The notes beneath the pieces were generated by a model. It saw nothing but the letters and a program-made list of their open reading frames with translations. It was not told where the DNA came from and made no database searches. From Isoetes taiwanensis (taxonomy: Eukaryota; Streptophyta; Lycopodiopsida; Isoetales; Isoetaceae), in contig JAJEKV010000094.1 in NCBI GenBank assembly GCA_021234155.1, positions 2,676,782 through 2,740,781 on the forward strand: a stretch of DNA of 64,000 bases, written 5' to 3'. Positions 41,958 to 43,181 of the stretch are shown in pieces (position 1 is the first letter of the stretch; every line of letters begins with the position of its first letter). Position numbers and translations under genes: made by a program.

Positions 41958-43181
41958 TTAGGGTCGTTCTCCCTTGATGCGAGTAGCAAGTTGCATGTCT
42001 TGCCTCATCAAAGTCACTCGCTTCGCATGGACAGTGCAAGCTGTTGAGTCTTCAAAATGCTGCACTATCTTCTTCTCAGCTGCTTCCTGGAGTGCGAGCA
42101 GCATCTCATCTGTGACCCTGTAGTCCGTCCTGAAATCCTGCATTACTTCTCTAACTAGCCGAGCAAAGGGGACGCGGGGAATCAGGAGGCCGTAGCTGCG
42201 TTGGAAGTGCCGAATCTCCCGTAGTGCTCTTTGCTCGAGCTGCTTCTTTGTGAGCTTCTTCTGTGAAGGCTTTTTCGGGACCTTGGGTCTTGGTGGTGGG
42301 GGTCTTAGGATCTGCTGCTTGGTTGGTCGTCCTCCCTCGATAAATCTGAGCTTGTTCTCCTCATAATACTTGTTGTATGCCTCCCACTCCTTCATATAGG
42401 CCTCGTGCTCCTTCATCTTGCGCTCATAGACCTTGACCGGGTTTGTGACATACGACTCTCGAGCAAGCCGGGGTTGCTTTTTCCTGTCCCATTTTGGGTA
42501 AGGAGGGGGCTTCTTCACTGTGTCCTGCTGCTCCTCCTCGGCCACTTCCTGCTCGGTTACTACCTGTTCAACTACTACCTGTTCAACGGCCGGGGGTTTG
42601 GAAGAACTTGCCCCTTCTGTGTTGGGGTTAGGCCCTTCGTCAGAACTCTCCGAGGGGGTTGGGGGATGATCGGGTGGTCGTTCAGTGATGGTGAACTTCG
42701 GGTTGGGCTTTTTCACCATGGGGACGTCCTTGAACTTCCTTGGGCTCCCCACCCATTTCCCTTTCTTCTTTTTGAGCTCCTCGGCCGATTTCTTCTCTTC
42801 TTCTTCCCTCTTCCTCTTCTTCTCCTCTCTTTTCCTTTCTCGGCGTTCGTATTTCCTGATAAACCGAGCGAGGTCTGCTTCCTCTTCCGGCTGAAGTCCC
42901 GGCTCCATCTGCTCCTGTTGCTCCTCCGCTTCCTTTTCTCTGATCCAGGCTTCGACTTGTTCTTCGATGGTCGGTTCTGGAGTCGGTATCCTCCTTTCCT
43001 CTCGGCTTTTGGTTCTCCTTTCCCGCTGCACTTCCTCCTCCTCCTCCTCAATTACTTCCGTCCCTGCTTCCGAGTGTGCTTCATTTTCTTCATTGTGCTC
43101 ATTCGAAGGTTCTCCCTCACTCGAAGAAGTTGGATCGTTAGGGTTAAGGGAGGCCGATATCGCCCGAATTGTCTTTGCCAT
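41958..43181 (-). CDS. retrotransposon-borne histone H3-like protein with long charged N-terminal tail
   Basis: The frame is open from ATG 43,181 to TAA 41,958 (407 residues). Residues 1-310 are low complexity: acidic and serine rich, then an arginine/lysine/glutamate coiled-coil-like segment (about 100-145), proline-rich parts (KKPPPYPKWDRKKQPR, PPPPRPKVPKK) and a tyrosine/glutamate helix. Residues 319-407 are a complete histone H3 fold aligning without gaps: alpha-N ALREIRHFQRS, LLIPRVPFARLVREVMQDF (alpha-1), loop RTDYRVT, alpha-2 EMLLALQEAAEKKIVQHFED, then HAKRVTLMRQD and LATRIKGERP. Loop 1 has canonical H3 length. REIRHFQ, LLIP, QEAAE and VTLMR recall plant CENH3 more than canonical H3. 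The tail lacks the ARTKQ start. It would be nuclear and could replace H3 or CENH3 in nucleosomes; this is inference. No intron is needed. Confidence 0.93.
   Translation of the reverse strand: MAKTIRAISASLNPNDPTSSSEGEPSNEHNEENEAHSEAGTEVIEEEEEEVQRERRTKSREERRIPTPEPTIEEQVEAWIREKEAEEQQEQMEPGLQPEEEADLARFIRKYERRERKREEKKRKREEEEKKSAEELKKKKGKWVGSPRKFKDVPMVKKPNPKFTITERPPDHPPTPSESSDEGPNPNTEGASSSKPPAVEQVVVEQVVTEQEVAEEEQQDTVKKPPPYPKWDRKKQPRLARESYVTNPVKVYERKMKEHEAYMKEWEAYNKYYEENKLRFIEGGRPTKQQILRPPPPRPKVPKKPSQKKLTKKQLEQRALREIRHFQRSYGLLIPRVPFARLVREVMQDFRTDYRVTDEMLLALQEAAEKKIVQHFEDSTACTVHAKRVTLMRQDMQLATRIKGERP

Follow-up and report, generated by a model that had tools for sequence, protein, structure and literature searches.

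The window analyzed here, the whole stretch of 64,000 nucleotides from contig JAJEKV010000094.1 of the lycophyte Isoetes taiwanensis (positions 2,676,782 to 2,740,781 of the forward strand), contains a Ty3/gypsy chromovirus, a retrotransposon with long terminal repeats (LTRs), that carries a gene for a histone H3-type protein. The inserted piece spans 32454-55000 on the minus strand and splits the third copy of a host repeat of approximately 3.6 kb. Along the minus strand, the order of parts is LTR, long leader, H3 open reading frame (ORF), ORF2, gag, pol with a chromodomain, and LTR (Table 1). Both LTRs are approximately 1.5 kb in length and 95% identical, have TG...CA ends, and are bordered by the target-site duplication ACATT at 32449-32453 and 55001-55005. 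The Pfam domains run gag, protease, reverse transcriptase (RT), RNase H, and integrase, with RT ahead of integrase, which is the Ty3 order. Because the interrupted repeat copy holds the element, the repeat family provides the empty site, which reads ACATT in one of the two uninterrupted copies and ACATC in the other. The H3-type gene, located upstream of gag, is with a probability of approximately 0.95 a conserved accessory gene of this chromovirus lineage, where it occurs in at least two main forms, termed A (the form in the window) and B.

The H3-type ORF lies on the minus strand, and its C-terminal end adopts the histone fold. The original prediction, made from the sequence alone, had aligned the last 89 residues of a 407-residue frame to histone H3 from αN to α3 without gaps, and this alignment holds: these residues match Pfam family PF00125 (Histone; E value 1.8e-27) and H3.3 in the PDB (E value 3.8e-28), covering H3 residues 47-135 and placing the protein in the H3 family. 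The fold is 59-62% identical to the best database H3 sequences and 58% identical to human H3.1, in each case with 0 gaps, in agreement with the prediction that loop 1 has canonical length. Against CENH3-type sequences, identity is 49-55% with one to three gap positions. In the alignments to three CENH3-type sequences, gaps fall in loop 1, with an extra C-terminal gap against Arabidopsis; loop 1 is one to two residues shorter than in these three and is not the longer loop of CENH3/CENP-A. An AlphaFold model built from 44 aligned sequences contains helices at residues 312-330, 336-350, 358-385, and 393-402. In the fold, the predicted local distance difference test (pLDDT) score is 80-94 by block after a first block of 64, and the whole model has a score of 69.4 and a predicted template modeling score of 0.30; the alignment contains H3 relatives, so the model leans on them. 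All 50 Foldseek matches listed are H3 chains in nucleosome or related histone structures. Among 62 other H3-type folds picked from database matches, 26 columns show conservation of 95% or more, and the window fold retains 24 of these; neutral decay simulated down to 58% identity (n = 1000) left 15.1 of them on average and never more than 21.

As predicted, the H3 frame is uninterrupted although pol and ORF2 are broken; frames are disrupted at the gag-pol border, in RNase H, in integrase, and in ORF2. A chance open frame is ruled out by the Pfam histone match together with order-2 Markov shuffles of the ORF, which yielded 407 open codons in 0 of 1000 cases and a longest run of 278. An open frame in a 5%-diverged element was rejected as proof of selection, since simulated frames survive in 9-28% of cases at 2.5-5% divergence with substitutions only.

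The coordinates originally given for the ORF are correct, but its start at residue 1 of 407 is not. The open frame runs upstream of the ATG at 43181 as far as 43280, and positions 43245-43182 hold a decayed H3-like N terminus that reads HRTKQHLRGKPAQ in the frame of the ORF; the ATG at 43245 sits in another frame. The 407-residue ORF of the window copy contains no ARKS, GGK, or TGGV. The prediction that the long tail is unlike any H3 tail fails, because sister copies in the family start with MARTKQTARK. With this tip in place, the long "tail" is an insert that separates tip and fold; in the window copy, the original start is gone. From N to C terminus, intact form A thus comprises the H3 tip ARTKQTARK, 316-335 inserted residues, and the H3 fold.

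These sister copies come from a search of the organism's own genome (1,658,258,908 bases in 1110 contigs) with the 440-residue frame, which returned at least 97 matches at 61-100% identity, the first being the window copy itself and the next best 86% identical. As 96 of 27,989 first-look candidates were scored, and two matches on contig 921 may be one copy, the figure of 97 is a minimum rather than a count of copies. Most of the 97 listed matches extend far into the non-histone part; by hand count, 43 have no stop inside the match and 54 do. Of 30 fetched loci, 23 have, in some frame, a start of the form MA[R/Q]TKQTARK with A, P, or T next and RP after it; in 10 loci, a single open frame joins this start to the fold. 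Apart from R2Q in one copy, this start is that of the host's canonical H3 (L040, MARTKQTARKSTGG). In all 10 open copies, C110, H113, A114, R116, D123, L126, and R83 are invariant, residues to which we would assign roles in the H3-H3′ bundle, the minor groove, and loop 1. Throughout the same copies, R63 is replaced by P, K56 by R, and K122 by Q, and form A is without the RYRPGT segment directly ahead of αN.

The copies are under purifying selection. Ratios of nonsynonymous to synonymous substitution rates (dN/dS) were obtained as Nei-Gojobori counts for the 45 pairs of the 10 form A copies that are open from tip through fold. The tip (15 codons) has a dN of 0.027, a dS of 0.428, and a dN/dS of 0.064, below 1 in 35 of 35 defined pairs, with synonymous codon changes beneath the H3 residues. 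For the fold, the values are 0.051, 0.560, and 0.092, and for the insert 0.153, 0.678, and 0.226, with the ratio below 1 in 45 of 45 pairs for both; the whole ORF has a dN/dS of 0.199. Among the window copy, L034, and L036, gag has a dN/dS of 0.09-0.12 (three pairs), pol 0.12 (one pair), and the whole H3 ORF 0.20-0.35, such that the fold is about as tightly held as gag and the insert less so. In form B, the folds of 14 copies, including L055, have a dN/dS of 0.055, below 1 in all 75 defined pairs of 91, and three full ORFs give 0.17-0.24 (three pairs). Forms A and B are therefore both under purifying selection.

According to the original prediction, absence of the ORF from the other copies of the family, or a dN/dS near 1 across copies, would have marked a one-off captured pseudogene. 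That case is ruled out by the 97 or more matches in the genome and by dN/dS far below 1 in both forms (0.055-0.092 in the folds). The broader possibility of a captured host gene fragment that is carried without function is highly improbable. It has a precedent in Pseudocercospora, where, according to PMC6710886, hAT-borne H3 copies are inactivated except for the original gene, and it would fit the 54 of 97 listed matches with internal stops; yet the fold dN/dS of 0.05-0.09 in both forms, below 1 in every defined pair, and the presence of the H3 gene upstream of gag in two chromovirus families speak against it.

The H3 gene travels with the form A element. Around form A loci, six longer stretches were fetched (L031-L036), and ORF2 comes next after H3 in all six, with gag following in five; in L032, ORF2 is split by approximately 2.6 kb, and gag is not reached. 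The H3 ORF is 80-88% identical to that of the window in all six; for gag and protease-RT, identity is 91-98% in L033, L034, and L036, and in L031 and L035 it is lower or limited to patches. When the same two copies are compared, dS is 0.44-0.72 in the H3 ORF but 0.15-0.30 in gag; exchange of the 5′ module between subfamilies is a candidate cause that would explain the difference.

Form B emerged from a search of the genome with PF00125, for which 150 of 8705 first-look candidates were scored, all above the cut-off. Fifteen of these (L037-L051) are ordinary host H3, and 15 form B-type loci (L052-L066) were fetched from the 135 others. In these, the fold is near-canonical and the N-terminal side differs from form A. 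In three of them (L054, L058, and L062), an open frame of 434-459 residues runs from M[P/S]RFKLT through the whole fold, which starts at residue 346-371. Form B has an N-terminal domain of approximately 320-345 residues, followed by what remains of the H3 tail (GGK ... KPHRYRPGT) and by the near-canonical fold; an H3-like ...GK motif is present in 13 of the 15 loci, [R/K]PGT adjoining the fold in all 15, and the ARTKQTARK tip in none. No similarity was found between the N-terminal domains of the two forms (best E value 1.1).

Form B is likewise found in Ty3-type elements. Within the 1.5-kb flanks, a Ty3 gag is present at two of the 15 loci, L062 (50% identical to gag of the window; Ty3_capsid, 9.1e-16) and L063 (32-34%). 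The order in L062 is H3, gag, protease-RT, RNase H-integrase, and chromodomain, with the downstream parts 50-70% identical to those of the window and no ORF2 match between H3 and gag. In L054 (2014-3336, sense strand) and L058 (1984-2988), an ORF2-like frame, open over 335-441 residues, follows H3, and gag is not reached. This frame has no Pfam match at an E value of 0.1, is distantly similar to ORF2 of form A (20.6% identity, 8e-8), and is a putative second accessory gene. A third line, L055/L068, is 36% identical to form B in the N-terminal domain and 44% in ORF2; downstream, its gag is 49% and its protease-RT 51-74% identical to those of the window.

Trees of the H3 folds, built without the host CENH3, which was not found, place form A in one clade (100/98) and form B in another (95/85), the latter nested among canonical H3 and host H3 (92/81). 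Form A stands beside two plant CENH3 sequences without firm support (98/69 and 93/77 in one analysis, 86/42 in another), and in the approximately unbiased (AU) test, form A with all CENH3-type sequences has a p of 0.137 and form A with canonical H3 a p of 0.524. A CENH3-derived module that targets the element to centromere-type chromatin is decidedly unlikely. It would account for the sequence words REIRHFQ, LLIP, and VTLM of form A and for its position beside plant CENH3, where nodes are unstarred and branches long. The canonical length of loop 1, the grouping of form B with host canonical H3, and an arrangement with canonical H3 that is not rejected and is no worse than the free tree are contrary to it. 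A single clade of A and B is not rejected (AU p 0.186). We favor one old entry of H3 followed by divergence over two entries, since gene position is shared and the ORF2 frames are related.

The tails of the two forms retain different parts of H3. Form A keeps only the K4/K9 tip, without S10 (A, T, or P takes its place in the 10 open copies that were aligned), and by eye this alignment shows no K14, K27, or K36 contexts. Form B keeps the part adjoining the fold and is without K4 and K9. With mark sites altered in both forms, the normal silencing marks would be missing, displaced, or unswitchable where the H3 of the element took over from that of the host in nucleosomes on element DNA. Such an anti-silencing nucleosome is the second likeliest role, albeit a rather doubtful one. 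The lack of ARKS, GGK, and TGGV in the window ORF, the lack of the tip in form B-type loci that do keep the motifs next to the fold, and the strong selection on the fold are all in line with it. However, the K9 tip of form A is nearly unchanged, which is odd for a protein that avoids K9 methylation. Alternatively, the tip, free or nucleosomal, could act as a histone mimic or decoy, anchored by the fold and occupying the host proteins that read or write the H3 tip. A start with MA is likely trimmed to a free Ala-1, and the tip with its synonymous changes fits this role, but constraint on the fold is similar to that on the tip, and none of the 15 form B-type loci shows the tip, making a decoy unlikely.

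The integrase of the window element does end in a chromodomain (PF00385), as predicted; the idea that it reads a K9 mark is weakened. By the aromatic cage rule (Y24/W45/Y48) given, together with the "group II" type, in PMC3350952, the chromodomains of both forms are without two of the three cage positions, with residues placed by eye. Methyl-K9 reading by these chromodomains thus appears unlikely.

From its sequence, the element's fold looks able to form nucleosomes without being an exact copy of H3. In the mechanism proposed, the protein would be a nucleosome-competent H3 variant that partners H4 of the host and uses its fold to become part of nucleosomes. The long N-terminal part would hold a partner from the element (the integrase chromodomain, Gag, or the ORF2 protein) close to chromatin. 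With this H3, the element would thereby provide its own tether or landing pad, to be used by the pre-integration complex or by the new copy. This tether or landing pad is the likeliest role, although it is proposed tentatively; the explanation taken whole, a conserved H3 accessory gene with this role, has about an even chance of being right. It is conceivable, if rather speculative, that the N-terminal domain is recognized by the element's own integrase or Gag in place of the lost methyl-lysine reading, such that the elements build and find their own nucleosomes. A role as a nucleoprotein component of the particle or the cDNA, away from chromatin, would suit the position of the gene on the gag side and the DNA binding of histone folds; it is very unlikely, as it would need H4 or self-pairing and the conserved H3-H3′ residues point to nucleosomes.

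Several points weigh against the interpretation as a conserved H3 gene with a tether role. The tether step is drawn from gene architecture alone. Some of the retention of conserved columns could date from selection on a host gene prior to its capture, though this would not account for the dN/dS among copies. Those dN/dS values come from open frames (10 of 30 loci), overlapping pairs, and a simple count, with few sites in the tip, and the whole H3 ORF is under weaker constraint than gag in the same three copies. Given the missing cage positions, the chromodomains need not bind the K9 tip of the element's protein, a tip that is found in 0 of 15 form B-type loci. R63P, K56R, and the missing RYRPGT segment imply that DNA wrapping by form A may differ.

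If the N-terminal domains are indeed recognized by the elements' own integrase or Gag, two families with different N-terminal domains and the same fold would amount to two private address systems within a single genome. The usual view of transposons is that histone-based silencing is directed at them; here, a genomic parasite would make a chromatin subunit. The copies form a natural set of heavily modified H3 proteins that bears on which parts of H3 serve nucleosomes and which serve silencing marks, and they raise the question of how an integrase finds chromatin without the methyl-lysine cage of its chromodomain.

Mobile elements that carry H3 are already known. In Pyrenophora tritici-repentis, PMC3538342 describes a hAT DNA transposon with an H3-like gene (H3L), present in 26 nearly identical recent copies with expressed sequence tags. 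As here, a mobile element multiplies an H3-like ORF, in that case neither canonical H3 nor CenH3; unlike there, the present case involves a plant LTR retrotransposon lineage, deeply diverged copies under selection, and long non-histone domains. Transposon-amplified H3 is similarly reported for Pseudocercospora and relatives, where, unlike here, repeat-induced point mutation has inactivated the hAT-borne copies (PMC6710886). Orchid Ty3/gypsy elements with an AlkB-type demethylase ORF are plant elements that, like those in Isoetes, have fixed a host-type gene for host regulatory chemistry, with a different gene; no histone domain is among those described for the screen of 121 angiosperm genomes (PMC9289625, section 12). 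The H3 ORF also resembles the extra ORFs (aORF/eORF) upstream of gag-pol that are a recognized feature of plant LTR retrotransposons (PMC7264820, PMC6317226). The word "histone" is absent from the main text of the former and occurs once in the latter, where a resemblance to any CDD domain is reported for 21.4% of the extra-ORF proteins. Among the search results listed from an open-access library, which holds no subscription papers or preprints, and in the text consulted, no histone gene in a retrotransposon was seen. What distinguishes these sequences is the LTR retrotransposon lineage, its depth, the selection, and the large added domains.

Searches of approximately 5.8 billion proteins for relatives of the tail gave 19 matches among the best 8000 candidates scored in one search and 29 among 876 in another, all with a Histone Pfam domain. 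In three of these, the alignment extends beyond the fold (P0014, 28% identity over 76% of the query; P0004 and P0009, over approximately 30%). A low-complexity filter shrinks these alignments to the fold; hence, no shared tail was counted, and no tail relatives are recorded among the proteins searched, although more distant ones may be missed. With the last 123 residues as the query, the best 120 of 7984 matches are headed by duplicated-fold proteins, and the others among these 120 are 46-63% identical. Public collections include long-tailed H3-type proteins (P0004, P0006, P0007, P0012, P0019, and P0028-P0030), some of which may be element-borne too. Viral contigs yielded nothing confirmed for the window ORF, P0028, P0019, or protease-RT, and no relatives were confirmed in phages.

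Table 1. Features of the H3-carrying element and its surroundings in the window
Feature	Position	Strand	Basis or remark
H3-type accessory ORF, 407 residues, as originally predicted	41958..43181	-	stop 41958-41960, ATG 43181
Histone H3 fold, αN to α3, H3 residues 47-135	41961..42227	-	Pfam, PDB, structure model
Non-histone insert, 318 residues left, charged	42228..43181	-	predicted helices 38-62, 72-91, 98-142, 248-281
Decayed H3-like N terminus; MARTKQTARK in sister copies	43182..43245	-	comparison with sister copies
ORF2, three broken pieces	39728..40858	-	sister copies have ORF2 too
gag	38397..39542	-	Retrotrans_gag 1.2e-17, Ty3_capsid 3.5e-15
pol: protease, RT, RNase H, integrase; frames broken	34785..38396	-	Pfam
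Integrase C-terminal chromodomain, group II type by eye	34839..34997	-	PF00385 1.9e-10
3′ LTR (TGTG...CACA)	32454..33956	-	blastn self-match to 5′ LTR, 95%
5′ LTR	53494..55000	-	self-match to 3′ LTR
Primer-binding site TGGTATCAGAGC	53481..53492	-	sequence
Polypurine tract	33957..33969	-	sequence
Hairpin, two near-perfect copies	41578..41845 (41578-41644, 41779-41845)	-	between H3 ORF and ORF2
Same hairpin, two more copies	53015..53271 (53015-53081, 53205-53271)	-	just inside 5′ LTR
348-bp tandem repeat, three copies, the third with a shorter match	43472..44467	-	upstream of H3 ORF
Host repeat, uninterrupted copies	9663-13256 and 22702-26304		sequence self-comparison
Host repeat, interrupted copy	31689-32453 / 55001-57669		holds H3 element

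Among the remaining parts of the element, the primer-binding site, TGGTATCAGAGC, is presumably of the initiator tRNA-Met type, and ORF2 of the window copy matches no Pfam family above the cut-off. In the window copy, an in-frame stop at 38397-38399 lies between gag and the zinc knuckle; the frame of L036 stays open from gag into the beginning of pol. Differences between the LTRs are clustered at the ends and in columns ~300-470, with three differing columns within 471-1100, as after recombination of two source copies or an assembly fault, which leaves the LTR age unsure. The hairpin of approximately 67 nt folds with -39.5 to -45.2 kcal/mol (z -6.8 to -9.4); a search of the window with its 23-base arm pattern, allowing up to three mismatches, found the four sites and no fifth. 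It is a candidate RNA element or a tiny foldback repeat. A 221-bp direct repeat (99.5% identity; 45228-45448 and 52773-52993) flanks approximately 7.3 kb of the leader that is T-rich on the minus strand; it was rejected as the LTRs of a nested element, as neither TG...CA ends nor a target-site duplication was seen. The multicopy host repeat carries a DUF7869 ORF (3.7e-36 in one copy), and elsewhere in the window lies a PPR-DYW-like fragment that matches a synthetic PPR-DYW protein at 6e-35, in keeping with a land-plant genome.
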